The translations under genes were made by a program, and so were the position numbers. The notes below the pieces were generated by a model. That model was not told where the DNA came from. It did not search any database and saw nothing but the letters and a program-made list of their open reading frames with translations. 26,802 nt of DNA from a virus: positions 1 to 26,802 of IMG/VR virus record IMGVR_UViG_3300030061_000258. One strand, given 5' to 3'. Positions 2,116 to 25,647 of the stretch are shown here, piece by piece; the stretch's first letter is position 1, and every line of letters begins with the position of its first letter.

Positions 2116-2600
2116 TCTATATTTTTTATTATTAGCATCTTAGTATTCTTATAAGTATTGTAAAGACTATAGTAGCTTATTCCTGTTTGCTTAGATAATT
2201 CAGCTATTGACATTCCATCAGAAATTAAATCAAAGATTTTGCGATCATACCAATACATTTTATCTAAAAGAGTATTTAGCTCTATCATTTTACCTGTAAT
2301 GTCTTTATGTTTTGTGTTTACTTCAGGCTGTATATATTTTTCTAAGTAATCTACATTGACTTTTTGTATCTTAGATTCTTTTCTACATAAATCTAAAAAC
2401 AAAGATTTTAAAGTACGATACATATAAAAATAGTTGATATCATCATCATAAGTTATATCTAACCCTTTATCGAGCAAAATAGAAATTTTTAGGTAAGCCT
2501 CTTGTACCACATCCTCACATAGGTATCCTTTACACCCAAAACTTCTTACAGTTCTTATCCAGGTTTGATGTTTACTCGCAAGTTTCTCAAGAGTTGTCAA
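2109..2600 (-). CDS. Phage-encoded sigma-like transcription factor, TTG start
   Basis: A 163-residue protein built like a small sigma factor. Residues about 25-75 look like region 2 (CEDVVQEAYLKI, then a helix with LKSLFLDLCRK). Residues about 115-155 look like region 4, with a helix-turn-helix, SIAELSKQTGISYYSLYNTY. Sigma factors bring RNA polymerase to specific promoters, so this protein is the best candidate to direct transcription from the repeated ACAAAA-N12-ACGTTATA elements in the virion module; that link is inference. The first in-frame Met is only at residue 60, inside region 2, so the TTG at 2600, overlapping the ATPase gene by 14 bases, is taken as start. It could instead be a sigma-like DNA-binding regulator without full sigma activity. 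Confidence 0.7.
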   Translation of the reverse strand: MTTLEKLASKHQTWIRTVRSFGCKGYLCEDVVQEAYLKISILLDKGLDITYDDDINYFYMYRTLKSLFLDLCRKESKIQKVNVDYLEKYIQPEVNTKHKDITGKMIELNTLLDKMYWYDRKIFDLISDGMSIAELSKQTGISYYSLYNTYKNTKMLIIKNIEW

Positions 2601-3495: not shown

Positions 3496-3520
3496 AAAAA
3501 AAGGGGGTAGTTAGCCCCCT
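3496..3520 (-). terminator. Terminator-like hairpin abutting the ATPase start codon
   Basis: On the minus strand AGGGGG-CTAACTA-CCCCCT is followed by a run of T that runs straight into the ATG at 3495. Stem arms are 3515-3520 and 3502-3507. It can stop transcription from the OB-fold genes before the ATPase, or act as an attenuator. Confidence 0.75.
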
Positions 3521-4333: not shown

Positions 4334-4366
4334 TAAAGTTAAGTAAAAAAAATTGATTTAAACAAA
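4334..4366 (-). promoter_or_regulatory. Bacteroidetes-type promoter of the replication/regulation operon
   Basis: Minus strand: TTTG (4363-4366), 21-base spacer, TAACTTTA (4334-4341), close to TAnnTTTG. The ATG of the first gene follows five bases later. It lies just downstream of the strong terminator at 4375-4408, so it marks a clean transcription boundary between the late block and the early operon. Confidence 0.65.
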
Positions 4367-13422: not shown

Positions 13423-13448
13423 TATAACGTACTTTCTTTAGATTTTGT
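13423..13448 (-). promoter_or_regulatory. Putative late promoter P5 (ACAAAA-N12-ACGTTATA)
   Basis: ACAAAA at 13443-13448 and ACGTTATA at 13423-13430; the ATG follows after five bases. Shares ACAAAATCT with P1. Sits immediately after the terminator at 13453-13485. Confidence 0.6.
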
Positions 13449-13452
13449 ACAT

Positions 13453-13485
13453 AAAAAAAGAGAGGCGTATTACTACAACCTCCCT
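13453..13485 (-). terminator. Terminator 3 of 3 after the tail tube gene
   Basis: Stem AGGGAGG/CCTCTCT (13479-13485 with 13459-13465, one G-T pair), 13-base loop, then seven T. Its T-run is five bases from the ACAAAA box of P5. Confidence 0.65.
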
Positions 13486-13514
13486 CTTATTACATTCAAT
13501 CTACTACAATATAC

Positions 13515-13542
13515 AAAAAAAAAGGGAAGTACAAAACTTCCC
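13515..13542 (-). terminator. Terminator 2 of 3 after the tail tube gene
   Basis: Perfect seven-pair stem GGGAAGT/ACTTCCC with a five-base loop, followed by nine T. Confidence 0.85.
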
Positions 13543-13596
13543 CTCTAACAAAAACTAATATTTATGAAAACTTAAATTAAGTCTAAGTAAAGATAT

Positions 13597-13625
13597 AAAA
13601 AAAAGGGATACGATTTACATACCCC
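13597..13625 (-). terminator. Terminator 1 of 3 after the tail tube gene
   Basis: Stem GGGGTATG/CGTATCCC (eight pairs, two G-T), loop TAAAT, then eight T. It begins 30 bases after the tube gene stop. The 237-base interval 13418-13654 otherwise holds no coding frame. Confidence 0.8.
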
Positions 13626-13654
13626 TTTAATTTTTCTGATTTTAATTATTCCTA

Positions 13655-14179
13655 TTAGTTAGGAGTAATTTGTGATCCCTGATTAGCTCCTGTAACTACA
13701 CTCGCTTGAGTGAAGTCTGGTGCTGCTTTCTCTGTAGCTATAAATGTTAAAGAGTAACCACTCTTATCTCCCATAGCTGCTCCTGTTCCAAAAGTACCTG
13801 TAGTTAATTCAGCTCCGTTCTCTTTACCTAGTAAGAAGTAGTTTCCATTGTAATCCTCTACCCAAATATGTGGGCGAGCTATTGCAAGAAGTCTTAATTC
13901 ATCCTGAGTATCTTTATCTAAGAAAGTAAAGTTAAGAGTAAGGGTGCTTTCATAAAAAGTAGTACCATTGTCTCTAGAGCTTGTTACAGTAGTTTCTAAA
14001 GATGAATCACCTTTTAAATCAAACTGATATACGGTAGGAGTACCAGAAATAGCTGTAATCTCAAAAGAAGTGATTGTAATAGTGCCTAATCCACCAAAGT
14101 CAGTGAAATAAACACTTTTTAAACCACCTACTGCTGATTTACAGGGTACTGTTCTACCATTAGTTAATAAACAAGCCAT
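13655..14179 (-). CDS. Major tail tube protein
   Basis: 174 residues. The start MACLLTNGRTVPCKSAVGGL and the blocks VYFTDFGGLGTITI, YQFDLKGDSSLETTVTSSRDN, GTTFYESTLTLNFTF and RPHIWVEDYNGNYFLLG match the tail tube protein of Bacteroidetes siphophages as I know it. It is beta-rich, fitting the stacked-hexamer tube fold. The presence of a tube together with a tape measure implies a long tail. The gene follows the capsid gene across a terminator hairpin, and three terminators follow it, so its mRNA may be a short, abundant monocistronic transcript. TAACTTTA precedes the ATG by a few bases and could be a -7 box. Confidence 0.85.
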   Translation of the reverse strand: MACLLTNGRTVPCKSAVGGLKSVYFTDFGGLGTITITSFEITAISGTPTVYQFDLKGDSSLETTVTSSRDNGTTFYESTLTLNFTFLDKDTQDELRLLAIARPHIWVEDYNGNYFLLGKENGAELTTGTFGTGAAMGDKSGYSLTFIATEKAAPDFTQASVVTGANQGSQITPN

Positions 14180-14195
14180 ATTCTAAAGTTATTAT

Positions 14196-14218
14196 AAAAA
14201 GGGTAGCCTAAACCACCC
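14196..14218 (-). terminator. Terminator or attenuator after the major capsid gene
   Basis: Stem GGGTGG/CTACCC (14213-14218 with 14201-14206, one G-T pair), six-base loop, then five T. It lies in the 54-base gap between the capsid and tube genes. Confidence 0.65.
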
Positions 14219-14233
14219 CTCTTAGATTAGTTA

Positions 14234-15163
14234 TTATGAATAGTAAACAATATCTGCTCCTACTCCAATTTGACATCCTGCTGTATATCTCATAATTACT
14301 CTAACATTCTGAGATCCATCTTTGTCAGCCATATCAATAAATCGAACTTCATTAATATCTGAGACTAAGCCCGTGCCAAAGAAAAGGTTGCTTTTGTAAG
14401 TAAGAAGCATTTTGTTGTTACCCATTCCGTTACAAACAAATACTGGAATACCTTCAAAAGTTAATTGTGCTCCATTAGAATACCAAGATGTACCTTGATT
14501 GTCGATACCAGCTGCACCTAAACCTGCTGTTCCAAAACCTCCTAAAGCTCTAATATAAGCTCTAGCTACATTTGTTGATACATAAAGAGTTAAGTCTGAT
14601 TTCTGTAATGTTTGCTTATTAGCAGCATCTACTACAGCTCCCATTTGTGCAATTACATTAGCTGAATCAACAGCTACTGCTGCTACATCTACTACAGTTG
14701 CATCAGCTAAAGCTAAGTTTTGAAAACCATCAAAGTCATCAGCACCTGCTGCACCTGCCCAGATAGAAGTTTCTAAAGCATCTGCTACTTGAGCAGCTAC
14801 TCTTGAGATTACATAATCCTCAAAAGAAGCAGGAATATCAGCATAAGCTGAAAAACCCAGCTCAATCGCTTGCCATTCATCTCTAAGCTCTTTTTTACAT
14901 AACTGAGCGTTAGCTTGAAGTTCTTTAGTTTCTAAAACTTTCTCTGTTAAAGTAAGCGTTGTTGTTGTTGCATCAAAGTCACACGATGCACCTTTTACTA
15001 CGTTTGCCCAAGCACCTACCTGAATTACAGATTTGTACTTTACATTAGGCATAATTGTCACTGCTCCTGCATCTAAAGTTGATGCACTAAGCAACGCACT
15101 GCCTATAATTTTACCACTAAATTCACCTGCGTAAGTTCCAGCGGTATAAGTTGGATTTGCCAT
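14234..15163 (-). CDS. Major capsid protein
   Basis: 309 residues, the size of an HK97-fold capsid without a delta domain. Typical parts: MANPTYTAGTYAGEFSGKII at the N-terminus, an 'ESWGAA..DD..G' segment (ETSIWAGAAGADDFDGFQNL), helix VIAQMGAVVDAANKQTL, LTLYVSTNVARAYIRAL, and the close RVIMRYTAGCQIGVG. High Ala content and the position just downstream of an acidic scaffold gene and just upstream of a tail tube gene support the call. N-terminal delta-type residues are absent, consistent with a separate scaffold. A hairpin follows the gene and may stabilise or end its mRNA. Confidence 0.85.
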   Translation of the reverse strand: MANPTYTAGTYAGEFSGKIIGSALLSASTLDAGAVTIMPNVKYKSVIQVGAWANVVKGASCDFDATTTTLTLTEKVLETKELQANAQLCKKELRDEWQAIELGFSAYADIPASFEDYVISRVAAQVADALETSIWAGAAGADDFDGFQNLALADATVVDVAAVAVDSANVIAQMGAVVDAANKQTLQKSDLTLYVSTNVARAYIRALGGFGTAGLGAAGIDNQGTSWYSNGAQLTFEGIPVFVCNGMGNNKMLLTYKSNLFFGTGLVSDINEVRFIDMADKDGSQNVRVIMRYTAGCQIGVGADIVYYS

Positions 15164-15175
15164 TTTTAATTAATT

Positions 15176-15796
15176 TTAATTATTATACATTTTACTTAAT
15201 ACACGATCTAAAGAAGTCTGCGCTCTTTTTTGTGCATACTTTAGATTGATCTTTTTGTTATCCACTTCTGGATTATGAGAAATAGCTTCAGCAGCTGGAG
15301 TTTCTGATAACTCTTGCTTAACTTGCTCCTCAACTTTTTCAAAATCTTCTTTTTCTCCCATCTTAGATTTTAAATCTGCAATAGCATCTTCAAGATTTTT
15401 AATTCTTTTTTCCATACCTTCCCAATCATATACAGCAGCCTCTTTGCCATCATCTTCTAATTCCTCTTCTTTCATCTCATCTTCTTTTTGTGGTACATCA
15501 TCTGATACAACTCTGTAATCAGCAATAATACCCTCTTCTTCAACTACTAAAAGTTTACCATCTTCCATTACATACTCTCCGATTGGCATAGCTACTTTCT
15601 CATCATCAGTTACGATAAATATTTCATCACCTTTTTCAAATGAGCTAGATTCAACGATTGTTCCGTTTTCAAGTTTAGCCTGAGCTAACTCTACTTTAAC
15701 CTCTTCTTGAGTTTCTTTTAACTCAACAGGGTTTTTTTCTATCTCCTCTTCCCCAAGGAAAGTCTTGATATTGTTTAAAATTTCTGTTGCTTTCAT
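15176..15796 (-). CDS. Acidic coiled-coil scaffold-like head protein
   Basis: 206 residues, very acidic, with Glu-rich helices (EEEIEKNPVELKETQEEVKV), a small beta section (KGDEIFIVTDDEKVAMPIGEY) and a coiled coil (GMEKRIKNLEDAIADLKSKM). It ends in a basic helix (KINLKYAQKRAQTSLDRVL) such as scaffolds use to contact the shell. With no scaffold domain elsewhere and its place between the XkdF-like protease and the capsid gene, it is the scaffold candidate. It begins the scaffold/capsid unit behind late promoter P4, whose ATG spacing is exactly five bases. Confidence 0.7.
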   Translation of the reverse strand: MKATEILNNIKTFLGEEEIEKNPVELKETQEEVKVELAQAKLENGTIVESSSFEKGDEIFIVTDDEKVAMPIGEYVMEDGKLLVVEEEGIIADYRVVSDDVPQKEDEMKEEELEDDGKEAAVYDWEGMEKRIKNLEDAIADLKSKMGEKEDFEKVEEQVKQELSETPAAEAISHNPEVDNKKINLKYAQKRAQTSLDRVLSKMYNN

Positions 15797-15801
15797 ATTA
15801 C

Positions 15802-15827
15802 TATAACGTGTTTAAATTTATATTTGT
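15802..15827 (-). promoter_or_regulatory. Putative late promoter P4 (ACAAAT-N12-ACGTTATA)
   Basis: ACAAAT at 15822-15827 and ACGTTATA at 15802-15809; ATG five bases downstream. It exactly fills the gap between the Cys-rich mini-gene and the scaffold gene. Confidence 0.6.
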
Positions 15828-15835
15828 ATTTTTGA

Positions 15836-15979
15836 TTAAGTTGTTTTAGTTATGTTCCCAATACCTTGCGCTCTTATGCTACCATCACAGCACTTTACAT
15901 TGTAAGTGTTGTCCTCACACAAACAACCTCTTCTGCCTCCTCTAGGGCTTGATTTACCTGGTATAAATACTTTTCTCAT
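15836..15979 (-). CDS. 47-residue Cys-rich phage protein
   Basis: Begins MRKVFIPGKSSPRGGRRG, then CLCEDNTYNVKCCDGSIRAQ and GIG. The C-x-C ... CCDGS..AQGIG block is one I have met in many phages as a hypothetical. Five Cys in 47 residues suggests metal binding or disulfides inside the virion. The ATG overlaps the upstream stop as ATGA. It is located between the protease and scaffold genes, so it is probably a minor head component, but no function is proven. Confidence 0.75.
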   Translation of the reverse strand: MRKVFIPGKSSPRGGRRGCLCEDNTYNVKCCDGSIRAQGIGNITKTT

Positions 15980-16095
15980 CTACCTTGTCCTTTATATATT
16001 TTTTTGTATCCTGTTTGTCCTACACTCGCATTCTTACTATGCGGATGTGATTTTCTTTTTGGTTTTATATATCCTCTAACTATATTTCTAGCCAT
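15976..16095 (-). CDS. 39-residue basic phage protein ending YKKIYKGQGR
   Basis: Starts MARNIVRGYIKPKRKSHPHS and closes GQTGYKKIYKGQGR. Short basic proteins or C-terminal tails with 'Y.K.Y.GQGR' recur in phage head regions. Its start overlaps the protease stop (TAATG) and its stop overlaps the next start (ATGA), so three head genes form one coupled unit. High positive charge fits DNA or scaffold binding in the prohead; function is inferred. Confidence 0.75.
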   Translation of the reverse strand: MARNIVRGYIKPKRKSHPHSKNASVGQTGYKKIYKGQGR

Positions 16096-17114
16096 TATTT
16101 AATAGGAATACAATTAGGTACTAACTTTCCATTTTTCATTTTCATTCCGTACTGCTCGTATCCTGCTGTGCAAGGTTTCTTAAGATCTATTAAGTCTAAT
16201 TCTTTTAACTTTGCAAAGCTCCATCTCTTAGCAGCTAAACCACCCCAAAGTAAATAAGATATAGTACCACACGCCTCTTTATCTGACTCATCATAATACT
16301 CCTCAGCTCTACTTAGATAGGAGTACATTCTTTTTATAGTTTCTATGCTTATTGCTTTGCCTTGAGCAAGTTGTTTAGCTCGTATCTTGCCAACTTGAGT
16401 AGCACACTTGTTATTTATTTTTTCGTTTAGCTTTATGCCTCTTTTTGCATTGTTTTTTACCGCATCTGGGTAATCAGTATAAGATTCTAACTCTCTTCTC
16501 TTACCACCCTTTACTCTACCATCATCTTTTACGATAGATCTAATTACTGATAGCATCTCTGCTGCCTCTTCCTCTTCAAAGTCATTTACAGGCTCTTGAG
16601 GGCGTTCAGCTTTATCTGCAAAGTAACCCTCGATACTAAATCCTTTTACTTTTCCTGTTTTTACATATTCATCCCATACCTCATCAGAGTTAACCTTAAC
16701 TGCACCCATCCAAGTACCTACAGGTACATCTAATCCATACTTTCTAGATTTATCGTGTACATCATCTTCTACTAACCAAGATTCTACTAAAGTCAATCCT
16801 TGCAAACTATGCTGATGCTCTAGTGTAGTATTGTTTTGTTTACCATTCATTAAATACAACTGAGATGCTTTCTCTATTGTTTTTTTTGAGAAATAGATAT
16901 AATACTCTTCCTCTCCACTCTTTCTGTATATTGGTTTATTAGGTACTAGTAATGCACCCATTAAGATTCGCTTCTCGTTTGATACTTCTGCTAATTTAAC
17001 CTCCTGTGATTTAAGGGCTATAAAATCTTCCTCTATAGCTGGTGATTCCACTAAAGAAATAGCTTCTATCCCTGAAAATACATTGTCACCTAAAATAAGT
17101 TCTATAATCTTCAT
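16095..17114 (-). CDS. XkdF-like prohead protease with extra C-terminal modules
   Basis: 339 residues. The N-terminus (DNVFSGIEAISLVESPAIEE, then DFIALK) is the XkdF opening. Residues 50-165 are a protease-like core: His100 in TLEHQH, ESWLVED (111-117), and Ser160 in VKGFSIEGYF, which fits the 'H ... mS.G' layout of prohead proteases. Residues about 205-310 form a separate helical module (AVKNNAKRGIKL, then CATQVGKIRAKQLAQGKAIS, IKRMYSYLSRAEEY). The last 24 residues have two Cys around GYEQYGMKMKNGKLVPNC. The core should cut scaffold and head proteins during maturation; the other modules are of unknown role. It starts five bases after late promoter P3. Confidence 0.75.
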   Translation of the reverse strand: MKIIELILGDNVFSGIEAISLVESPAIEEDFIALKSQEVKLAEVSNEKRILMGALLVPNKPIYRKSGEEEYYIYFSKKTIEKASQLYLMNGKQNNTTLEHQHSLQGLTLVESWLVEDDVHDKSRKYGLDVPVGTWMGAVKVNSDEVWDEYVKTGKVKGFSIEGYFADKAERPQEPVNDFEEEEAAEMLSVIRSIVKDDGRVKGGKRRELESYTDYPDAVKNNAKRGIKLNEKINNKCATQVGKIRAKQLAQGKAISIETIKRMYSYLSRAEEYYDESDKEACGTISYLLWGGLAAKRWSFAKLKELDLIDLKKPCTAGYEQYGMKMKNGKLVPNCIPIK

Positions 17115-17119
17115 ATTAT

Positions 17120-17145
17120 TATAACGTTTAATTTATTTTTTTTGT
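17120..17145 (-). promoter_or_regulatory. Putative late promoter P3 (ACAAAA-N12-ACGTTATA)
   Basis: ACAAAA at 17140-17145 and ACGTTATA at 17120-17127; ATG five bases downstream. It fills the gap between the tape measure stop and the protease start. Confidence 0.6.
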
Positions 17146-18834
17146 TTATCCTAAAGTTGCTCCTGTTATTATATTCCTTTCTAACTCTTGAGCTGTTGAT
17201 ACATCTCCACTAACTACAAAGGCTTGTATTGGTGCTTGTTGTTGTTCTCCTAAAGCTGAAGCTAGTGCATTAGCTCCTCCTCCACCTGCTAAGTTAAATT
17301 GTGGAGGTATTGATTCTGCTACAGATGGACTTGAAATTGATGGCGCTGATATACTAACACTACCACCTGCACTACCTGCACCTGCTGAAGCCATAGATGC
17401 AGCTTGTTTAGTTTTACCAATAGCTTGTTTTACTGCTGATATAATTCCAACCGCCTGAGCTGCATAAGCTATTAATAAAGGTATGTTTTGTGGAAAACCT
17501 ACTTTAGCGGTTTCTGCGCTACCTGCTGCTACTGCACTACCTGCTTTAGCTCCATCTACTGTAGCTTCTACTGCAGCTTGTTGAGCTTTAATTAAAGTTT
17601 TCTTAACCTCTAATATGTTTTCCCTAGCTGCTAATAATGTTTTAGCTACTAAGATAGCTTTACCTAATCTACTTTCTTCTCCTGCTAATCTAACTGCTGT
17701 ATTAAATGTATGTTCTCTAATTGCTATCTTTTGTGCCTCTATTTCTTTTTCTCTTTGTAATCTAGCCAATTGATCTGCCGCTGCCTGAGCATCAGCTTCT
17801 TTTTGCTTTTTAATTTCCTCATCTTGCCTAGCTTTTAATGTCTCAAAAGTTTCTCTATTCACAAAACCAACACCTGGTATAAAGAAATTATTTTCAGCAA
17901 ACTCTTTCTCTGCTGCTCTTTGCTGATCTAATAAAGCTTTTCTCGCTGCGGCTTCCTCTGCTGTAAATGCAATTATTTGCCCTGTTACTTCTTTTTGTTT
18001 TGTTAGTCTAGCTTGTTCTAGTCTAATTAATTCTGCTTTTAAATTTGCCTCCTCATCTAAATCCTCTTTAGTTGATCCACTTAGTTCATTCTCAGCTTGT
18101 TTAGCTTGTAGTCTTAATTTAGCAGCCTCTATTTCTTTGTTTGTAATATCTTGCTCTACTTTACCTGCTTCTTTAAGAAACTCAATTCTTTCTTGTACTG
18201 TAAATTTTTCTTTGTTTACAGATTGCTCTAAAAGTTCAGCTCTCTTTCTATCAGCCTCTGCTCTTTCTACTATTAACTCTCTTTGTTGTTTATCAGCCTT
18301 AGCTCTAAGATCTGAAAGCTCACCTGCTATTGCTATTTCTTTACGAGTTTCTTCTCCAAAGTTTTTAATACCCTCTGTTACATCATTTAATGCCTCGCCT
18401 GCTGCTTTAAAGTTACCTGTGAAGACATTAAACATTACATTACCAAAATCACTAATAATGTCAATTACGTTTCCTGTAACAACGCCTATTTGAGTCATTA
18501 GTTTAGCAAATCTATTTTGTCCCTCTTCTGAGTTTTTAAACATTGCAACAAGTGATCCTATAGCTAAAACTAAAGCTCCAACACCTGTAGCTAATATTGC
18601 TACTCTTAAATTCTTAAAGCTTTTTACTACATTACCTATAGTACCTCTTAGACTTTTAAATTTAGTAATAGCTCCACCTGTAGTGCTATCTAATATATTC
18701 CCTAATTCCTCTTGAGATTCTGTAGTTTTATCTACTTGCTTTTCTAACTTAGAATACTCTTTCTGCATTTCATCTAAGTTAGCTACAGCCTCTTTGTATC
18801 TTAACTCAAAATCTATATAGACTTTCTTTGCCAT
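17146..18834 (-). CDS. Tail tape measure protein
   Basis: 562 residues. Starts MAKKVYIDFELRYKEAVANL and has long coiled coils (about 15-45 and 175-370, rich in Glu, Lys and Ala). One hydrophobic segment lies near the N-terminus (about 72-98, VAILATGVGALVLAIGSLV) and another in the C-terminal third (NIPLLIAYAAQAVGIIS). The end, APIQAFVVSGDVSTAQELER, is typical of tape measures in Bacteroidetes phages. Its length sets tail length; at about 0.15 nm per residue this predicts a tail of roughly 80 nm. No muralytic domain is seen. It overlaps a 49-residue gene by 22 bases. Confidence 0.85.
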   Translation of the reverse strand: MAKKVYIDFELRYKEAVANLDEMQKEYSKLEKQVDKTTESQEELGNILDSTTGGAITKFKSLRGTIGNVVKSFKNLRVAILATGVGALVLAIGSLVAMFKNSEEGQNRFAKLMTQIGVVTGNVIDIISDFGNVMFNVFTGNFKAAGEALNDVTEGIKNFGEETRKEIAIAGELSDLRAKADKQQRELIVERAEADRKRAELLEQSVNKEKFTVQERIEFLKEAGKVEQDITNKEIEAAKLRLQAKQAENELSGSTKEDLDEEANLKAELIRLEQARLTKQKEVTGQIIAFTAEEAAARKALLDQQRAAEKEFAENNFFIPGVGFVNRETFETLKARQDEEIKKQKEADAQAAADQLARLQREKEIEAQKIAIREHTFNTAVRLAGEESRLGKAILVAKTLLAARENILEVKKTLIKAQQAAVEATVDGAKAGSAVAAGSAETAKVGFPQNIPLLIAYAAQAVGIISAVKQAIGKTKQAASMASAGAGSAGGSVSISAPSISSPSVAESIPPQFNLAGGGGANALASALGEQQQAPIQAFVVSGDVSTAQELERNIITGATLG

Positions 18835-18962
18835 AACTGTTCTTTTATTTGTTTATATCCCTCTTTTAATGTTTGTGGTATTTTATATTTACCTTTTGCT
18901 ATTTTTATATTTTCCGTTTCAGCCTTTGCATAAGGCAATAACTCTATTATATTTCTTATCAT
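18813..18962 (-). CDS. 49-residue basic protein before the tape measure
   Basis: Begins MIRNIIELLPYAKAETENIK, continues IAKGKYKIPQTLKEGYKQIK and ends EQLWQRKSI. Its ATG overlaps the upstream stop (TAATG) and its tail overlaps the tape measure start by 22 bases, so it fills a 127-base space that would otherwise be empty. It could be a tail-assembly helper because of its location, but no motif shows this. Confidence 0.65.
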   Translation of the reverse strand: MIRNIIELLPYAKAETENIKIAKGKYKIPQTLKEGYKQIKEQLWQRKSI

Positions 18963-21163
18963 TACGTTAATACACTTTCTGTATAAGTTGCTGTTTTAAC
19001 AATTAGCTCTAATTCTGATTTACCTGTTGTTAAATTCATTCTTATACTATTTATATAATATTCTTCTGTACCTATAGTTATAATGTCATTTAGCTTATAG
19101 TTTAACATAAAGCTAATAGGTAATTGTGCTTTCACTTTTACTATTCTGTTTTTCTTATCAAATGTTTGGACTATATATTGCTGATAAAACCTATTAAATA
19201 AATTATTAGTATTTACGTTTAGCTTATAAACATCATACTCATTATCGAAGCTTAAAGAATGATCCCCAGTACCAATAATAGTTTCGTTTGGTGAAATGTT
19301 AGATGGTGCATTATAGGTGCTAAAAGTACCACCACCAACAATAGGATTACTTGCTGTTAAAAATCTATTAAAGAAAATATAAGGTTTACCTAAAGCCGGT
19401 TTGCTATCTGCATCTACCCACCAACCCATAATGTTACCTGAACCTGTTAATGTAGAAGTAGTTGTATTTTGTATATCAAACAAGGGGCTTCTTTGAAAAG
19501 GTAGTTTTTGTTCAAATGATTCTCCATCGTATTTTTCAGGAGCTGAATAACTTAAATCAGCAAACGCTTTACTAAATTTATCTACATATTCTAAACCAGT
19601 TTTAGTAACAGGATCAGAGTATTTAAAATCTATCCTACTATATGGTATTGATCTATCTATTGTAGAATCATTAATATCTATGTATTTAGTTATATCCCTT
19701 GTAGTACCTGCTGTCATAAAGTTATCAAAAGTCTCTACATATATTGTACTGCTATCCAGTTTAGTGTAAGCTACCAAATTAAACATCTTAAAAAGTCCTG
19801 TAAGAAAATCTATAATTTTCATTTTAGGTAAGTAATCTTGTATAAATATACTATAACCCAAAGTGAAACCTGCATTACTATAATCGTGGTTTGAAGCTGC
19901 TCCGTTTACTGTTTTAATAATTCTCATAGCTTCTGATGGAGGAGTTAAAGGTGAGAAAACTTGTACGTTTTGATCTTCGATTAAAAATTGTATATCATAT
20001 GTTCTTTGATCTAAAGTGCCACTAGTTAGATTTGTAAGTGTAACAGTTGTAGTAACTGCTGGATTAAGTGTTACGTTATCTCTATAAAACAATAGCTCGT
20101 TTGTTGTTATATCTATAACTTTTATTTTACCAAAAAAAGATGTTATACTAGGATCTAACCTTAACCTAATACCATAAGTTTCACCTGCATTTACAACTAA
20201 CTTACCACCTGTTAAAACATCTCCTGAGCCTGAAACATATGTAAAATCCGCTAAGGTTAGTTTTTTATTTCTAGTGCTAAAGTCAATACCACTATAAGAT
20301 TCATTGGCACCAGCCTTACTTGTTTTCTCTCTATGCAACCACATATAAAGTCCATCAAACATATCACTACCAAAAAAAGATTTAGTAGTTACTGTAGCAC
20401 TTTCTAATACAACAAAATCATCATTAACCTCTGTAATTACATTATCACTATTTTCTGCTAATACAAAGTCATCAGTAACCTCATCTGACATATTAAAAGT
20501 AATACCATATTGTGTTTGTATAGCTTCTATTATTAGCTTTAGCTTTATAGCAGGTTTTAACTCTTTTTTAAGATTAGCAAAAGTTACATCATATATATTA
20601 GGATCTGAGGTAGTTGCGGTGTTATATATATAATAGTTTTGTAATGTTATTAATGGCAGAACTATATTTCTATTTGAGTCGGATGTCGATACCACACCTG
20701 TAGTTTGTAATCCTGTTTGAAAAGAATCAAACAAATCATTGTTATTATAACTAATATCGTATGTACTTAAAGGGTTTAATGAGCTTAAATCCTCATTACC
20801 AAATAAGTCATTAAGGTTACTAGGCTTTCCAAAAAATACTACTTTATAAGAATAAGGTAAATTGTTTTTCATTCCTACCCCATCTAACCTTATCTTACCT
20901 TTTTTAAATGGTACTTGATTTATCTCGATTCTTGCCTCTACTTGAAACCTAGCATCAAATCCACCTGTAATATTGTAGTTATAATAATGCTGAAATAGCT
21001 TGTTGTTAGTTGCTGAGGCAGGTAGATTAAAGGTTTGTGAGAAAGGCGTAAATATCTTACTTATATCTAAGATGTTTTGTAAAGAGTCAGTAATATTGAT
21101 GGATTCATCTTTAAATAAATCAACTCTTGTATCTGCAATAAATAATTGTACCTCACGTTTCAT
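18962..21163 (-). CDS. Large tail-associated structural protein
   Basis: 733 residues. The N-terminal section (LFIADTRVDLFKDESINITD, then FTPFSQTFNLPASATNNKLF and HYYNY) is a pattern I associate with a conserved Flavobacteriia phage family. The rest is beta-rich, with a helix near the centre (LKPAIKLKLIIEAIQTQYGI) and a C-terminal domain containing YSRIDFKYSDPVTKTG and ITIGTEEYYINSIRMNLTTG. The layout, N-terminal ring-like domain followed by larger strands, could be a distal tail or baseplate hub protein. It is paired with 21163-22125 (TAATG overlap). It lies upstream of the tape measure rather than downstream, where tip proteins usually are. Confidence 0.6.
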   Translation of the reverse strand: MKREVQLFIADTRVDLFKDESINITDSLQNILDISKIFTPFSQTFNLPASATNNKLFQHYYNYNITGGFDARFQVEARIEINQVPFKKGKIRLDGVGMKNNLPYSYKVVFFGKPSNLNDLFGNEDLSSLNPLSTYDISYNNNDLFDSFQTGLQTTGVVSTSDSNRNIVLPLITLQNYYIYNTATTSDPNIYDVTFANLKKELKPAIKLKLIIEAIQTQYGITFNMSDEVTDDFVLAENSDNVITEVNDDFVVLESATVTTKSFFGSDMFDGLYMWLHREKTSKAGANESYSGIDFSTRNKKLTLADFTYVSGSGDVLTGGKLVVNAGETYGIRLRLDPSITSFFGKIKVIDITTNELLFYRDNVTLNPAVTTTVTLTNLTSGTLDQRTYDIQFLIEDQNVQVFSPLTPPSEAMRIIKTVNGAASNHDYSNAGFTLGYSIFIQDYLPKMKIIDFLTGLFKMFNLVAYTKLDSSTIYVETFDNFMTAGTTRDITKYIDINDSTIDRSIPYSRIDFKYSDPVTKTGLEYVDKFSKAFADLSYSAPEKYDGESFEQKLPFQRSPLFDIQNTTTSTLTGSGNIMGWWVDADSKPALGKPYIFFNRFLTASNPIVGGGTFSTYNAPSNISPNETIIGTGDHSLSFDNEYDVYKLNVNTNNLFNRFYQQYIVQTFDKKNRIVKVKAQLPISFMLNYKLNDIITIGTEEYYINSIRMNLTTGKSELELIVKTATYTESVLT

Positions 21164-22125
21164 TAAATAATGTTATTAATAATATCGTTAGCATCTTCTA
21201 CATCTAGTGTATATTGTACTAGTTTATCGTTTACAGATGTTTTCTTTGTTAGTGAATTAGTAACTACTGTAACAGGGTGCCATTGTTTAGTGATAAAAGC
21301 ATCTCCACTTGGAGTGTCGTAGTATATCCATACATACTCACTTAACATTATATCTTGTATTACATCATTGTAAGCAGTTAATAAATAGTTGGTGTTTAGA
21401 GTAAAGCGTTTCCTACCATTTTTGTTAAATGTTAATATTTGATGATCCTTTTTGTCATAAGAGCTAGAGGATTGTGTAAATATATTTCTTTTAAACGTAT
21501 CACTTTTTGTAGTTATACTTTCTACATTCTTTAAGAAAAAATAAAAGTCCTGTGGAATACCTGCTTTATTAATAAACCTCATCTGTATTGCATCATACTT
21601 TGGATTGCATATTCTATCAATAGTCCAAGTATTATTAGTACCAACAACTGTTGTAGCTGAGGTGCTTATGGTGTTTTTTGTTAAAGTTCCTCCTGCCCAT
21701 TCATAAGCAAATGAAGCTGTGTTATCTGGTAAATAAATCGTTTCTGTACCGCCTGTATTTGTTACTGCTTCATCAGTCGTATCAACCTCTGAATAACCAT
21801 CCCAAAAACTATTGTATCCATAATAGCCAGTATGTGTTACTGTTGCTGTAGCTAATTGTGTACCTCCACCATCTACCGCATCATAAGCATACCAAGTGCC
21901 ACTTATTGATACTGTATCTATATCATCTCCTGTTGCTCCACCATAATTAGCTACATAGTAATCTTTTGCTAAAGTAGATAGTTCAAATACTGTTCTATTA
22001 TTTGTAGCATTTTTTACTATCGTGTATCTTAGTGTGCTATCAATAGTCAACTCTAACTTTGCTGATAAGTGTGTAGCTGTTGTTACATTTAAAAAAAAGG
22101 GAGTTCTTAGTAATATCGTTGCCAT
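21163..22125 (-). CDS. Conserved tail-associated protein of unknown function
   Basis: 320 residues, mostly beta strands: RTPFFLNVTTATHLSAKLEL, RYTIVKNATNNRTVFELSTL, SFAYEWAGGTL, WTIDRICNPKYDAIQMRFIN. It has many Tyr/Trp and no signal peptide or catalytic motif. Its neighbour relation (tail completion genes before, large tail protein after, translational coupling to the latter) indicates a virion protein, probably part of the tail tip. I cannot name the family. Confidence 0.6.
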   Translation of the reverse strand: MATILLRTPFFLNVTTATHLSAKLELTIDSTLRYTIVKNATNNRTVFELSTLAKDYYVANYGGATGDDIDTVSISGTWYAYDAVDGGGTQLATATVTHTGYYGYNSFWDGYSEVDTTDEAVTNTGGTETIYLPDNTASFAYEWAGGTLTKNTISTSATTVVGTNNTWTIDRICNPKYDAIQMRFINKAGIPQDFYFFLKNVESITTKSDTFKRNIFTQSSSSYDKKDHQILTFNKNGRKRFTLNTNYLLTAYNDVIQDIMLSEYVWIYYDTPSGDAFITKQWHPVTVVTNSLTKKTSVNDKLVQYTLDVEDANDIINNII

Positions 22126-22127
22126 AA

Positions 22128-22646
22128 TTAGTTTTTATTCATATTCTCAGGGAAAAATCTTTTATCTTGTTCTATATCAAAGACAAATGCCTCAGCTAAT
22201 TCATCTGGTATATATTTAAAGGCTCTTTGAAAAGGTTTAGTAAAAAAGTAACTAGGTTTTATTCCGTGTAAAAATATACTTCTAGCTACTGCATATTGTA
22301 AAGACTTTCTCTTAACAAATTTACCTGACTCATCTCTAGTACCCTCTAATCCTTTTCTTACTACCCATTGACTAAATGCTGAGGGTGGTGGCATCTTGTT
22401 TGTGTATTTATAAGGCGTGTTATATTTTGTCTTAGTACCACTTACCCCTAAATCTTGAAAAGCACCATAGTCATCCATACTAAATAAAAGATCTATAGAA
22501 TCTTTATACTCATTAATTCTGTACTCTAAGCTATCATATAGGTTTTTAGTAACATTCTTTTTTTCTCTTGTAAGATTAGTTCTAGCCTGTTGTATAACAT
22601 ACTTAGCAAACTTGTTTAATATTTCTTTGGTATCTTTTAGTCGCAT
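22128..22646 (-). CDS. HK97 gp10-like tail completion protein
   Basis: 172 residues with an N-terminal helix (EILNKFAKYVIQQARTNLTR), then KNLYDSLEYRINEYKDSIDLLFSM, DYGAFQDLGVSGTKTKY, and near the end YAVARSIFLHGIKPSYFFTKPF. 'Y..FQdlGvsG', followed by helices and 'hGikps.Ff.kp', is the layout of HK97 gp10-type completion proteins adapted to Bacteroidetes phages. It should stabilise the top of the tail at the neck. It overlaps the putative terminator gene by 10 bases. Confidence 0.75.
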   Translation of the reverse strand: MRLKDTKEILNKFAKYVIQQARTNLTREKKNVTKNLYDSLEYRINEYKDSIDLLFSMDDYGAFQDLGVSGTKTKYNTPYKYTNKMPPPSAFSQWVVRKGLEGTRDESGKFVKRKSLQYAVARSIFLHGIKPSYFFTKPFQRAFKYIPDELAEAFVFDIEQDKRFFPENMNKN

Positions 22647-23110
22647 AAGTTTATATCGTTTTGTACAAACACATCAAAAGTACAAGTCACACCTGCCATC
22701 TCATTTTCAAATCTTTCATAAAAGAATTCACAACTAGCATCCCCTGTTAATTGGTATTTATTAAAATGTATTGTGCCTTGCCTTAATGCTCCTACTAATC
22801 TGTTTACTACTGCTAATTGTGTATTGATTACATCCTGCTCATTATTGTTACCTCTAAATATATCAGTAGTTTCTTCTTTGCTGAGGTTTACTAAGTCCAT
22901 AGCTAATACACTTATATTAAATTGTAACACCTCTTCTGTTATTGTAACACTATTTATTATAATATGAGATAAAGGAAAGATTGTTTGTTTAGATAAGTCT
23001 ATTTCTGTTATATCCCCTGTTGTTACAGTATTAACATTATTATCAGCTAATAACTGATCCTTTATAGTTTGTGTTATTTGATAATATCCTCTTACCCCTT
23101 GATTACTCAT
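22637..23110 (-). CDS. Tail terminator-like protein
   Basis: 157 residues: GYYQITQTIKDQLLADNNVN, then FPLSHIIINSVTITEEVLQF, NISVLAMDLV, DVINTQLAVVNRLVGALRQG and TCTFDVFVQNDI. The combination of an N-terminal helix, strands, a central helix and a final strand fits tail terminators, which cap the tail tube. The adjacent gp10-like gene supports this. It overlaps the upstream membrane peptide gene by 8 bases. Confidence 0.65.
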   Translation of the reverse strand: MSNQGVRGYYQITQTIKDQLLADNNVNTVTTGDITEIDLSKQTIFPLSHIIINSVTITEEVLQFNISVLAMDLVNLSKEETTDIFRGNNNEQDVINTQLAVVNRLVGALRQGTIHFNKYQLTGDASCEFFYERFENEMAGVTCTFDVFVQNDINLCD

Positions 23111-23234
23111 TTATATTTCTTTTTTTTCTTATTGTTATATACAGCATAGGAAGTGCTGCTAATATGATAAATGTAAATAGATTTAGATGTGGCTCTCCAC
23201 AAAGTCCTAATAAGTGTTTAATAGTTTCTATCAT
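23103..23234 (-). CDS. 43-residue membrane peptide with LCGEPH motif
   Basis: Begins MIETIKHLLGLCGEPHLNLF, then a hydrophobic helix (FIILAALPMLYITI) and a basic end (RKKRNINE). The 'LLG.CGEPH.N' start followed by one membrane span is a pattern I recognise from Flavobacteriia phages near tail genes. Orientation would put the basic tail in the cytoplasm. The ATG overlaps the previous TGA (ATGA) and its end overlaps the next start. Its role is unknown; the motif includes a Cys and His. Confidence 0.7.
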   Translation of the reverse strand: MIETIKHLLGLCGEPHLNLFTFIILAALPMLYITIRKKRNINE

Positions 23235-23335
23235 TTTTTCATTTTCTTTTTAATTTGATTAGCCTCATAGTCTGCCTTATCTTTCATATAGCTTAATGCA
23301 TATAAACATTCGTGCATACTTAGCTTAGTGATATC
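23231..23335 (-). CDS. Predicted -1 frame extension of the tail chaperone gene
   Basis: A 34-codon frame open from the slippery site to a TGA at 23231. It reads DITKLSMHECLYALSYMKDK followed by ADYEANQIKKKMKK. In the fused form it would extend the 211-residue part of the upstream gene to 245 residues. If no frameshift occurs, a 28-residue protein could start at the internal ATG (23317). The pattern 'L...E.L.AL.Y..DK...E..Q' has coding character, and it reaches the next gene's ATG with an ATGA overlap. So either as a fusion or alone it is very likely translated. Confidence 0.6.
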   Translation of the reverse strand, partial: DITKLSMHECLYALSYMKDKADYEANQIKKKMKK

Positions 23336-23967
23336 TTTAAATCTTCTAATATCTCCTTGAGCGAGTCCGTGAATTGATTGATACCACCCCCATTTTCTTC
23401 CAAAATTAGCCTCTGAGCTGAGTTCATCTCCTCCTCCTGTAAATAGCTCAGCATAGTTTTCGATAAGTCCATCCCTAAATGATAAAAAAAAACAATAGAG
23501 CCTAATACTGCATCCATCGGCATATCTTTCATTAAATCAGACTTATCACCTTTGTATTCCTCTATTAAATACTTATTGCTGTATCTTTGAATAATAGGGC
23601 GGTATAAAACACCCATAGCCTTTTCAATATTATCAAAGTCTCCTATATAAGTATCTAAATCTACATACTCACCAAAAGTCATTTCTTCAATATTTGGTAT
23701 AAACCCATACTCTACTCCATTAATAGTAAACTCTTTTACCAGTGGAGGCGTTTCTTTAAACATCTCTGATAATACGTTAGTAATATCTCGTATGCTAGTA
23801 GCCCTCATCTTTAGAATTAAATCTGATCTAATACCACAAAATATTTCAATCATTTTGATAGCTAGAAAAGATTCATCATCATTATTATCTTGTATCTTTA
23901 AAAACTTTTGATACTGAGCTAAAGTTATCTCGTTAAGAGAATTAGGTACTATTACTTCTTTTCTCAT
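23320..23967 (-). CDS. Tail assembly chaperone-like protein (short form)
   Basis: 215 residues: MRKEVIVPNSLNEITLAQYQ, then FTINGVEYGFIPNIEEMTFG, EYVDLDTYIG and AMGVLYRPII. The combination 'EITL.QYQ.FL' and 'YGFIPN.eeMTfGEY.DLDTY' belongs to a Bacteroidetes phage family I know only loosely. I call it chaperone-like because of its size, mainly helical composition, position beside tail genes and the slippery TTTAAAG near its end, the hallmark of gpG/gpGT-type pairs. It lies far from the tape measure gene, which is unusual for that role. Late promoter P2 precedes it with the ATG at the standard five-base distance. Confidence 0.65.
   Translation of the reverse strand: MRKEVIVPNSLNEITLAQYQKFLKIQDNNDDESFLAIKMIEIFCGIRSDLILKMRATSIRDITNVLSEMFKETPPLVKEFTINGVEYGFIPNIEEMTFGEYVDLDTYIGDFDNIEKAMGVLYRPIIQRYSNKYLIEEYKGDKSDLMKDMPMDAVLGSIVFFYHLGMDLSKTMLSYLQEEEMNSAQRLILEENGGGINQFTDSLKEILEDLKISLS
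23335..23341 (-). other. Slippery heptamer for programmed -1 frameshift
   Basis: On the minus strand T TTA AAG (zero-frame codons 210-211 of the upstream gene) has the X XXY YYZ form. Slippage would read TTT AAA and continue in the -1 frame for 34 codons. An imperfect stem (GCTAAGTATGCA with TGCATTAAGC) begins ten bases downstream and could stimulate it. Confidence 0.6.
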
Positions 23968-23972
23968 ACTTA

Positions 23973-23998
23973 TATAACGTAAAAAATAAAAGTTTTAG
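23973..23998 (-). promoter_or_regulatory. Putative late promoter P2 (CTAAAA-N12-ACGTTATA)
   Basis: ACGTTATA at 23973-23980 with ATG five bases downstream; upstream box CTAAAA at 23993-23998 is the most diverged of five. It fills the 34-base gap after the large terminase gene. Confidence 0.55.
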
Positions 23999-24001
23999 AA
24001 A

Positions 24002-25207
24002 CTAACTTATAGTGTACTTACCTCTACTAGGGTTTTTAAGTTGGAAACTTACAGCGTATCTTACTGCATCTATTAAATGGTTAAATTTGTCTATAGGTGT
24101 GTTAGACTTTCTTTCTAACCAAGAGTAGTTGTTTAGTTCTTTGATGAGGTTAATACTATCCTCGCTTATCACTAAATCATAATCCTGTAATAACGATATA
24201 CCATATGTTACACTACCTTGCCCTTTTACACTAGGCTTTACATTACATCCTTTTGATCGTATCTCACTAATTAGTCTAGGCTCAGCACTATCAGCTACTA
24301 TTAAGCCATCTTTAGCGTGTTGTTGATTTAAGCGTGTTATTTCGCTTGTAGTTAAGCTAGGTAAGTAAAAACACTCTTTAAGGTATATTCGTTTATTAGA
24401 AGTGTCTATATTGGTTTCTATTAGCGTTGTAGGATCATTACTAAATCCATAATCTTGCCCCCATACGCTTACACCTACTTTCTTAAACTCACCAATACTC
24501 CAATTACTAAATATTACGCCCTCTGCTTTATCTAACCATCCACCCATTATAGCGTGTTTGTATTTTAGTGGGCGTCTTACTTTTAATTCGTTTATTTGCT
24601 TTAAAAATGATTCTGATAGGTTTTCTAGATTGTCTTGGTAGGTAGTGTGTATGTAAGTACAATTATCTTTGGTGTTATTGCTACCCTCTTGTACTCCTTT
24701 ATCCTCAAAGAATCTTTGATATATCCAATGCTCTTTAGTAGTAGGGTTAAGTATTAATATTATCCTGTTTTGGTTTTTAGTTTCTCGTATTGTTAAATCT
24801 ATCTTATCAAACGTACCCTCATCTGTTAATTCCTCAGCCTCATCTAATACCCAAGTAGTAACACCTGTAATAGATTTAAGATTTGCTGTTTGATCTCCTG
24901 ATGATGTTTTAATACCCTTAAATACTATCTTACTTCCTGATCTTATATTTATTATTTCATCTTTGGTTATGTGAAAGTCGTCAAACTTATCTAAGAGTTC
25001 TATCTTCTCTATAAATTCAGGTATAATAGAAACATATGCTGAGGTTAGTGTATATCTAGTGAATAGTATTGTGTGGTTTGCCTCGTATGTTAGCAGCACT
25101 AGCATTAAGTTAACAGAAAATGATTTACCAGAAGCTCTACCTCCTGTTATTACATAATATCTAGTATCATTACCAATAGCTTGGTATTTAGTGTTTATAT
25201 CAATCAC
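24002..25207 (-). CDS. terL: Terminase large subunit
   Basis: 401 residues with the two-domain terminase plan. ATPase: GGRASGKS Walker A (22-29) and WVLDEAEE Walker B plus catalytic Glu (119-126), with the coupling motif region ILNPTTKEHW. Nuclease: GQDYGFSNDPTTLI (Asp252), VADSAEPRLISEIRSKGC (Asp306) and FNHLIDAVRYA with the last Asp, the usual acidic set for a RNase H-like fold. It resembles the Terminase_3/PBSX group. It pumps DNA into proheads and cuts concatemers. It overlaps the small subunit gene by 4 bases (ATGA). Confidence 0.9.
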   Translation of the reverse strand: MIDINTKYQAIGNDTRYYVITGGRASGKSFSVNLMLVLLTYEANHTILFTRYTLTSAYVSIIPEFIEKIELLDKFDDFHITKDEIINIRSGSKIVFKGIKTSSGDQTANLKSITGVTTWVLDEAEELTDEGTFDKIDLTIRETKNQNRIILILNPTTKEHWIYQRFFEDKGVQEGSNNTKDNCTYIHTTYQDNLENLSESFLKQINELKVRRPLKYKHAIMGGWLDKAEGVIFSNWSIGEFKKVGVSVWGQDYGFSNDPTTLIETNIDTSNKRIYLKECFYLPSLTTSEITRLNQQHAKDGLIVADSAEPRLISEIRSKGCNVKPSVKGQGSVTYGISLLQDYDLVISEDSINLIKELNNYSWLERKSNTPIDKFNHLIDAVRYAVSFQLKNPSRGKYTIS

Positions 25208-25470
25208 TTAAACTTGATTAGATCCTTAAAGCTGATACTAAAGCCCTCTGAGCTGCTAATATCTATCTTTTCTTTTGGTTTACCATATCTGTAATTAAAA
25301 TACATTTGTATTGCTCTTATATCACCTTTAGCTATTAGTTCTCCTAGTTTCTTTAGTGCAATATCACTATCAATAATATTATCTAACCTTTCTACTAATT
25401 TATATTCATCAGCTTTAGGTTTTCTACCTGCTCCTAATCTACTACCTCCTCTATTTTCTAGTTTGTACAT
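25204..25470 (-). CDS. terS: Terminase small subunit-like DNA-binding protein
   Basis: 88 residues. The N-terminal GGSRLGAGRKPKADEYKLV is the small-terminase 'GAGRKP' signature, a basic hook that can lie in the minor groove. A helical part (LDNIIDSDIALKKLGELIAK) and YRYGKPKEKI follow. It would recognise phage DNA for packaging together with the large subunit, whose gene overlaps. It is short for the family, where 130-170 is more usual. The start is 26 bases downstream of late promoter P1, and a palindrome sits in that leader. Confidence 0.75.
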   Translation of the reverse strand: MYKLENRGGSRLGAGRKPKADEYKLVERLDNIIDSDIALKKLGELIAKGDIRAIQMYFNYRYGKPKEKIDISSSEGFSISFKDLIKFK

Positions 25471-25480
25471 TTTGAAAAAC

Positions 25481-25494
25481 TTTGATTAATCAAA
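25481..25494. repeat. 14-bp perfect palindrome in the terS leader
   Basis: TTTGATTAATCAAA reads the same on both strands and begins two bases downstream of the ACGTTATA box of P1, covering the expected transcription start. Perfect 14-mers of this kind can arise by chance in AT-rich DNA, so position is the main argument for an operator. Confidence 0.45.
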
Positions 25495-25496
25495 TA

Positions 25497-25522
25497 TATA
25501 ACGTTAGTTTTCAAGATTTTGT
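25497..25522 (-). promoter_or_regulatory. Putative late promoter P1 (ACAAAA-N12-ACGTTATA)
   Basis: ACAAAA at 25517-25522 and ACGTTATA at 25497-25504. Unlike the other four, no ATG occurs at five bases; terS begins 26 bases downstream. TATATTTG, an exact TAnnTTTG box, overlaps the element, so the host polymerase might also use this site. Confidence 0.6.
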
Positions 25523-25647
25523 TCTGGTAGTCTTTTTTTAATCTCTAGTATCTCTCTAGATAACTTATCTACCATTATATAAAGATTAGCTGTTATTCTT
25601 TCTATCTGTGCTATCTTTTGTTTTTGTGTCCATTTCTTATCTTTCAA
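25504..25647 (-). CDS. 47-residue helical protein, TTG start
   Basis: Fills the space between the methyltransferase and terS genes. It begins at a TTG overlapping the methyltransferase stop as TTGA. The chain is (M)KDKKWTQKQKIAQIERITAN, then LYIMVDKLSREILEIKKRLP and a short end, probably one long coiled-coil helix. Its stop overlaps the ACGTTATA box of P1. The family is unknown. The frame, coupling and composition support it; the non-ATG start lowers confidence. Confidence 0.55.
   Translation of the reverse strand: MKDKKWTQKQKIAQIERITANLYIMVDKLSREILEIKKRLPEQNLEN

Follow-up and report, generated by a model that had tools for sequence, protein, structure and literature searches.

Promoter-like elements at the heads of the virion gene units

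What directs transcription of the virion genes of this phage, and where do the resulting mRNAs begin? In the window (the whole stretch of DNA analyzed, 26,802 nt, IMG/VR record IMGVR_UViG_3300030061_000258), the sequence ACGTTATA occurs five times, always on the minus (coding) strand and never on the plus strand, while shuffled windows held a mean of 0.85 copies with a maximum of 3, and 0 of 100 shuffles reached five. A second box lies exactly 12 nt upstream of each copy, reading ACAAAA at the 25497, 17120 and 13423 copies, ACAAAT at the 15802 copy and CTAAAA at the 23973 copy. In four of the five copies N5-ATG follows directly, i.e. the element ends exactly 5 nt before the start codon, and three of the intergenic gaps are just 31-39 nt long. 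The exception is the terS copy, which overlaps the end of ORF 25504-25647 and stands 26 nt from its ATG. The elements and the sequences next to them are as follows.

25497..25522, minus strand: predicted late promoter 1 (terS/terL unit), ACAAAA-N12-ACGTTATA, terS ATG 26 nt downstream, predicted leader of ~20 nt
25481..25494, minus strand: perfect 14-bp palindrome TTTGATTAATCAAA lying within the terS leader, where transcription is predicted to start
23973..23998, minus strand: predicted late promoter 2 (tail-chaperone-like gene 23320-23967), CTAAAA-N12-ACGTTATA-N5-ATG, relatives compared
17120..17145, minus strand: predicted late promoter 3 (maturation protease 16095-17114), ACAAAA-N12-ACGTTATA-N5-ATG, relatives compared
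15802..15827, minus strand: predicted late promoter 4 (scaffold-like gene 15176-15796 and capsid 14234-15163), ACAAAT-N12-ACGTTATA-N5-ATG
13423..13448, minus strand: predicted late promoter 5 (gene 13052-13417 and portal 11121-13055), ACAAAA-N12-ACGTTATA-N5-ATG, relatives compared
13453..13488, minus strand: terminator hairpin with T run, directly upstream of predicted late promoter 5, kept in relatives

The two-box pattern by itself is moderately rare (16 matches with up to 3 mismatches versus 8.8 expected, with 1 of 100 shuffles reaching 16), and the weight comes from the exact ACGTTATA copies together with their conservation. A 35-nt matrix was built from 55 non-redundant sites at other loci, excluding nine loci with the window's own sequence and retaining close relatives. 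This matrix ranked the five ACGTTATA sites 1-5 in the window, at 16.0-31.3 bits, versus 10.9 bits for the next window site and 14.4 bits for the top of 20 shuffled windows, and it placed the element at no other genes of the window.

Two known promoter types were considered for the elements. A host sigma-A promoter was excluded by reading the sequences: TAnnTTTG is absent at the expected place in all five, and no minus-strand match of a TTTG/TAnnTTTG scan falls at any of them. T4-type late promoters consist of a single TATAAATA box; here, ACGTTATA is paired with another box 12 nt before it. The first-pass annotation had reported the five coding-strand copies, the ACAAAA-like box at a fixed 12-nt distance, a terS-leader copy running into the end of the preceding small gene and a poor match to the host consensus, and all four observations held.

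Spacing and conservation in related phages

Among relatives, the consensus is ACAAA-N14-CGTTA-N7-ATG. Counting distinct contexts, a measure that takes in orthologues, CGTTA-N7-ATG was found in 106 versus 15-49 at 19 other spacings, and ACAAA-N14-CGTTA in 52 and its N12 form in 28 versus 0-8 at 20 other spacings. A pattern scan of IMG/VR with the correct ATG spacing gave at least 119 stretches, mostly gene starts. Among the 118 matches listed, 100 had an open frame of at least 100 codons; 108 had frames of at least 40 codons, of which 63 were protease orthologues. When the ATG was moved 3 nt further as a control, the complete scan gave 26 stretches, with 4 frames of that kind.

We also surveyed TerL loci, taking 76 of 80 and excluding four that had no upstream sequence or were partial. 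The two-box form, here without the need for a nearby ATG, was present in 45 of the 76 (the terS copy), while 31 lacked the strict form upstream of terL. That the terS copy is kept without a nearby ATG argues against a translation signal. The scaffold copy (predicted promoter 4) is retained in close relatives and gone in distant ones, in which the -10 box drifts (TTATATA, AGTTAT, CGTTATCA) and the element is missing at some protease starts. In the Nonlabens phage isolate P12024L, the element stands ahead of seven genes, including the heads of the capsid, portal and terminase units; the capsid protein, compared with named phages, matched solely the four P12024 records. A scan of genome contigs yielded one MAG contig, with GTTATA-N5-ATG twice. 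In this family of marine flavobacterial phages, one short two-part promoter probably drives the virion genes.

Terminators and start-codon context

A terminator precedes the element of the portal-unit gene g13417 in 18 of 18 non-redundant relatives, and its T run begins 38-60 nt before the ATG (38-43 nt in 13 of the 18). At g14179 loci, from which the element is absent, a terminator was found upstream in 29 of 31, mostly 20-29 nt before the ATG; thus, a gene just past a terminator need not own a promoter.

The sequence before the start codon differed between element genes and control starts. Positions -13 to -11 were A-rich in 63 of 73 control starts versus 14 of 40 protease and g13417 starts (p 4e-8) and 27 of 67 starts of all four element genes (p 2e-8). 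A T at -1 was found in 37/40 protease and g13417 starts, 56/67 starts of all four genes and 39/73 control starts, and it is frequent at g14179 too (25/31). With the box and N7 present, all 124 distinct starts that opened 60 codons or more were ATG, with 0 GTG and 0 TTG, and upstream of the four window genes there is no in-frame ATG, GTG or TTG as far as the nearest stop. Given ordinary promoter geometry, transcription would start at the AUG or within a base or so. The first-pass annotation had predicted a start 5-8 bases past ACGTTATA, which in four of the five copies is on or beside the ATG, so that these transcripts would be leaderless.

A sigma factor-like gene and its co-occurrence with the element

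2109..2600, minus strand: gene for a 163-aa ECF-type sigma-factor-like protein, listed with a TTG start, with matches to phrog_1740 and by fold; proposed promoter reader
4334..4366, minus strand: promoter-like site of host type, TTTG-N21-TAACTTTA, differing from TAnnTTTG in its last base, where the operon leading to the sigma gene begins

ORF 2109-2600 matched phrog_1740 with an E value of 3.2e-6, and its Pfam scores were under the curated cut-offs (Sigma70_r2, 16.7 bits with a cut-off of 24; Sigma70_r4_2, 14 bits with a cut-off of 25.7). The best fold matches of its structure model (pLDDT 83.5) were sigma factors, with sigmaE 1or7 at Z 10.4 (rmsd 7.3, 128 aligned), a Z near 10 being not strong for helical proteins. 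Matches to sigmaE 1or7 and other ECF sigmas ran over residues 1-163, sigmaE region 4 (2h27) gave Z 9.6 (rmsd 3.1, 67 aligned), and the best Foldseek E value was 0.0068. As modeled, the protein has the ECF layout: it consists only of two small domains, sigma regions 2 and 4, and its size is within ~160-200 aa.

The sigma gene was found in 19 of the 22 records searched, with a distant version in P12024L that is annotated Sigma-70 region 2 and shares 24% identity with the window protein. A protease match was present in 24 of 24 records chosen from the sigma search, in G029 over residues 201-308 only and in G042 with a best match over 208-307. At the thresholds used, the window sigma had no match among named phages, and among 50,697 phage records P12024L/S were the only relatives of the phage sigma found; the P12024L sigma, compared with named phages, matched only the same four P12024 records as the capsid protein. 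We infer the pairing of sigma and element from their co-occurrence. Covariation between them, which was clear in small sets and weak in a larger one, carries little weight: the partial correlation between -10 and sigma divergence was 0.43 in 17 genomes (control stretch 0.34) and 0.40 in 12, these sets excluding L005 (the window sequence) and the L019 protease start, and it was 0.27 versus 0.15-0.16 for neighboring stretches in 30 genomes, excluding L411, L429-L436, L019 and L066.

The host-type site (4341) follows a terminator where the early operon begins, and similar TTTG/TTTA-N17-18-TAnnTTTA sites were seen, among the matches listed, in several but not all close relatives. A relaxed TTTG/TAnnTTTG scan proved unspecific, with 43 sites versus a mean of 29 and a maximum of 35 in 30 mononucleotide shuffles, and only the 4341 site was used.

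The first-pass annotation had read the elements as two-box late promoters with a fixed spacer, a reading supported by related phages, the comparison it had itself proposed. Its "phage-specific polymerase specificity" is narrowed: the phage has a sigma factor-like gene, and of 20 window proteins compared with Pfam none matched an RNA polymerase, in a record that may be incomplete. The N5-ATG spacing at four of five copies, the 163-aa sigma-like gene and the leaderless consequence were not among its points.

A model for virion gene transcription and its alternatives

We consider it likely that host RNA polymerase, carrying the phage ECF-type sigma, reads the predicted late promoters, giving leaderless virion mRNAs and a terS mRNA with a leader. 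Computed here were the element with its spacing and its conservation, the placement of terminators, the sigma-like fold and the co-occurrence of element and sigma. In the proposed mechanism, the host-type promoter would head the operon with the sigma gene (2109-2600), and the sigma would redirect host RNA polymerase to the five copies, which would serve as the phage's late promoters, their late timing being drawn from the kind of genes concerned. With aACAAA(A) at ~-33 to -26 and CGTTA(TA) from ~-12, transcription would begin ~8 nt after CGTTA. At four promoters the start would fall on the A of the ATG, give or take about a base, and the tail-chaperone-like, protease, scaffold/capsid and portal units would yield leaderless mRNAs; the terS transcript would carry a leader of ~20 nt. 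The exact start and leaderless translation are predictions from sequence, and the rarity of leaderless mRNAs in hosts of this phylum counts against them.

The same promoters might instead have a reader of host origin (an ECF or another sigma), or depend on host polymerase plus a phage activator, with a different role for the phage sigma-like protein. The divergence of the phage sigma between the window and P12024L, which nevertheless have CGTTA-N7-ATG in common, would fit such a reader, as would the weak covariation test. However, the sigma gene in 19 of 22 records and the protease match in every sigma-search record speak for a phage partner, and drift of the -10 between clades of one phage family fits it better than a fixed host factor; we regard this alternative as unlikely. 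It also seems improbable to us that transcription starts slightly further up, or at multiple positions, to give short leaders of ~2-10 nt. ECF transcription start positions do vary. In F. psychrophilum, the sigma-A type box is placed at -12 to -5 (PMC9723704), and ACGTTATA so placed would put the start one base before the ATG. The sharply fixed distance from CGTTA to ATG, with the signal lost in IMG/VR on a 3-nt shift, the T before the ATG in 37 of 40 starts and the scarcity of an A-rich leader stretch all weigh against such leaders.

The fixed distance to the ATG could also mean that the ATG-proximal part of the element acts in the RNA, as a signal for translation initiation, and not as promoter DNA, and A at -3 and -6, common in element starts, favors initiation in F. 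johnsoniae (PMC6847099). This we find very hard to credit, as the terS copy has no nearby ATG, a conserved ACAAA box lies ~30 nt upstream, other window genes do without the element, and one copy stands directly behind a terminator.

Promoters read by host polymerase with the phage sigma, if placed so that the first message base is fixed at the AUG, offer a sharp prediction of 5' ends and, if true, would supply flavobacterial genetics with a compact pair of promoter and sigma. Should the leaderless part hold, virion genes would use the translation route of 5.5% of the mapped mRNAs of F. psychrophilum (PMC9723704). A broader proposal is possible, though we hold it to be slightly less likely than not: a lineage-wide class of leaderless virion mRNAs made through a phage ECF-type sigma, in which late translation would bypass the A-rich leaders on which host genes and other phage genes rely, and one sigma would switch both transcription and translation mode. 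In titles and abstract openings of the open-licence literature, we found no description of late gene control, or of such a promoter, leaderless late genes or a sigma, in these flavobacterial phages.

Comparison with known systems

In ECF-type promoters, the -10 contains CGT and the -35 contains AAC, ~16-17 nt apart, and the ECF -35 is GGAAC. By reading, CGT is present in five of the five copies and AC lies 17 nt before it in four, the 23973 copy being the exception; an A precedes the AC in two. The present system partly resembles ECF (group IV) sigmas, sigmaE and the flavobacterial motif SM6 in its two-domain sigma-like protein of ~160 aa, in CGT in the -10 and in AC at the -35, ~17 nt upstream of CGT in several phage copies. 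It is unlike them in being phage-encoded and tied to virion genes, with an A-rich -35 (ACAAAA) in place of GGAAC.

Late transcripts of the Thermus phages phiYS40 and P23-45 are reportedly leaderless, a likeness to the leaderless late mRNAs predicted here, although these are other phages with other hosts. Like the T4 and SPO1 factors, the phage sigma would turn the host RNA polymerase over to phage genes; in contrast to the T4 late system, the element is ACGTTATA with an upstream box and not TATAAATA. The regulators of P23-45 are gp39 and gp76 (PMC5312081), and the phage late sigma systems include T4 gp55 and SPO1 gp28 and gp34 (PMC9429907). In Deinococcus-Thermus, a -10 box adjoining the ORF is described as giving leaderless mRNA (PMC12340547); unlike that box, which serves bacterial genes in another phylum, the present one is a phage element with an upstream box that stands before a set of virion genes.

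The late element in the window and in related phages

The 26,802-base window is an entire virus record. Its long frames lie mostly on the minus strand, and the proteins recognised by Pfam and PHROGs include TerL, the portal, an XkdF-type maturation protease and a virion structural protein (capsid). The first-pass annotation had described five copies of ACGTTATA on the coding strand, with an ACAAAA-like box 12 nt before each of them, and all five were seen as claimed. They are also exactly the top five scores in the window for a matrix built from 55 non-redundant sites at other loci; this training set kept close relatives and excluded nine loci carrying the window's own sequence. In four of the five copies, ACGTTATA is followed by exactly five bases and then ATG; the four genes so linked have no in-frame ATG, GTG or TTG upstream as far as the nearest stop, and three intergenic gaps measure 31-39 nt, roughly as long as the element itself.

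The expectation that related phages carry the element in equivalent positions was borne out: in the best 80 of more than 598 capsid-gene relatives, it was found again before the same genes. Among these 80, the -10 box varies between clades (CGTTATA, CGTTATCA, AGTTAT, TTATATA) and the distance to ATG is largely kept. Distant relatives have lost the scaffold copy and lack the element at some protease starts. At 45 of the 76 loci examined, the strict two-box form lay upstream of terL, and at 64 of the 76 there was a looser CGTTATATA or TGTTATATA; in the listed cases, a leader separates this element from the next start.

In the Nonlabens phage P12024L, the element precedes gp01 (head of the unit containing the capsid homologue, 29% identity), gp05 (upstream of the portal), gp08, gp37 (upstream of TerL), gp42, gp45 and gp46. 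Read by eye, six of these genes have CGTTA-N7-ATG and gp37 has N6; T or C directly precedes ATG in 6 of the 7. Small annotated genes (gp04, gp07 and gp44) diverge from three late promoters of this phage (locus L163). A host-like TATATTTG box lies shortly before the starts of gp04 and gp07, so host-type and late promoters may stand back to back.

Spacing of the boxes and the start codon

We counted spacings in the window, 158 IMG/VR loci and P12024L, taking contexts as distinct by sequence and including orthologues. For CGTTA-N7-ATG there were 106 distinct contexts, compared with 15-49 for each of the other 19 spacings; for ACAAA-N14-CGTTA there were 52 and for the N12 form 28, compared with 0-8 for each of the 20 remaining spacings. 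Scanning IMG/VR for the pattern correctly spaced from ATG returned at least 119 stretches. Among 118 matches read, frames of 60 codons or more were opened by 104 and frames of 100 codons or more by 100 (stop counted, frames running off the contig included). When the ATG was moved 3 bases downstream, the complete scan gave 26 stretches, 5 opening frames of at least 60 codons and 4 of at least 100. Among the right-spacing matches listed, 108 frames of at least 40 codons formed 11 clusters, the four largest having 63, 16, 16 and 5 members. The cluster of 63 comprises protease orthologues; those of 16, 16 and 5 had no BLAST match to the window proteins supplied. All 124 distinct element-linked starts with frames of at least 60 codons were ATG. 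The element is very probably a promoter.

Start-codon context and terminators

Published studies state that initiation in F. johnsoniae is promoted by adenines at -12 and -13 (PMC6847099), that 5.5% of F. psychrophilum mRNAs are leaderless (PMC9723704) and that 5' UTRs shorter than 10 nt make up about 3.7% of those in B. thetaiotaomicron (PMC7366714). Control starts from the same genomes (capsid, portal and g14179, the gene downstream of capsid) were A-rich at -13 to -11 in 63 of 73 cases, compared with 14/40 for the protease and g13417, the gene upstream of portal (p 4e-8), and 27/67 for all four element genes (p 2e-8). T at -1 was found in 37/40, 56/67 and, for controls, 39/73; gene by gene, it reached 25/31 in g14179, which has no element, and only 9/17 in the scaffold gene. 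A T at this position is consistent with transcription starting on the A of ATG, and transcription probably begins at the AUG.

Upstream of g13417, all 18 non-redundant loci have a hairpin (-8 kcal/mol or better) plus a T run starting 38-60 nt before ATG (38-43 in 13 of 18), with differing stem sequences. The space left between terminator and ATG fits a promoter and little else. This argument is not watertight, because g14179 has such a terminator in 29 of 31 non-redundant loci, mostly 20-29 nt before ATG, with no late element. In the window, this conserved terminator is perhaps partial, setting the capsid excess:

14196-14222, minus strand: conserved terminator between the capsid gene and g14179 (29/31 non-redundant loci)

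A phage sigma factor as the candidate reader

ORF 2109-2600 matches the RNA polymerase sigma factor family phrog_1740 (E 3.2e-6) and, with scores below the cut-off, Pfam sigma regions 2 and 4. Its AlphaFold2 model (pLDDT 83.5, pTM 0.70) is closest to ECF sigmas: sigmaE 1or7 (Z 10.4, rmsd 7.3, 128 aligned) and sigmaE region 4, 2h27 (Z 9.6, rmsd 3.1, 67 aligned), with modest Foldseek E-values (best 0.0068). A profile of 22 phage sigmas found the protein in 19 of 22 hand-chosen records including P12024L, whose gp35 is 24% identical to the window sigma; the three records without a match are 18.9, 20.7 and 24.1 kb. Each of 24 records hand-picked from 78 sigma loci had a protease match (E 0.001 or better), in record G029 only over residues 201-308.

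Given capsid divergence, the partial correlation of -10 with sigma divergence was 0.43 (17 genomes) and 0.40 (12) (p 0.0002), while the corresponding stretch of control genes gave 0.07 and 0.00 and a second control stretch gave 0.34 and 0.20. In 30 genomes, with protease divergence as the given, the correlation was 0.27 (p 0.0015), with 0.15-0.16 (p 0.006-0.018) for other stretches. On these results, the sigma-element pairing is supported mainly by co-occurrence. The phage sigma probably reads the element.

The 53,010-base contig IMGVR_UViG_3300030202_000332 (loci L005, L009, L085 and L089) carries two related capsid gene copies (100% and 94%) and two related sigma gene copies (99% and 81%), an arrangement suggestive of two joined phages or of a chimeric assembly.

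Proposed regulatory logic

4334-4366, minus strand: host-type promoter-like site at the head of the operon leading to sigma
3496-3519, minus strand: hairpin GGGGGCTAACTACCCCC followed by seven T, directly abutting the ATG of the AAA/DnaB-like gene at 3495
25481-25494, minus strand: perfect 14-bp palindrome TTTGATTAATCAAA at the predicted terS transcript start

The operon containing sigma would be headed by the host-type site. The AAA/DnaB-like gene lies upstream of sigma, and the hairpin before it, with sigma downstream, could delay sigma; among the 15 distinct sequences listed, it is flush with the ATG in 14 (locus L104 has extra bases), with loops and stems changed. Sigma would then activate five units, namely terS-terL, tail, protease, scaffold-capsid, and portal onward. 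The terS palindrome is possibly an operator or packaging-protein site; several relatives have ATTGATTAATCAAT or the near-palindromic ATTGAATAAACAAT in roughly that position.

We found no description of this promoter system in the open-licence papers searched. Its component parts are of known kinds; their combination is new.
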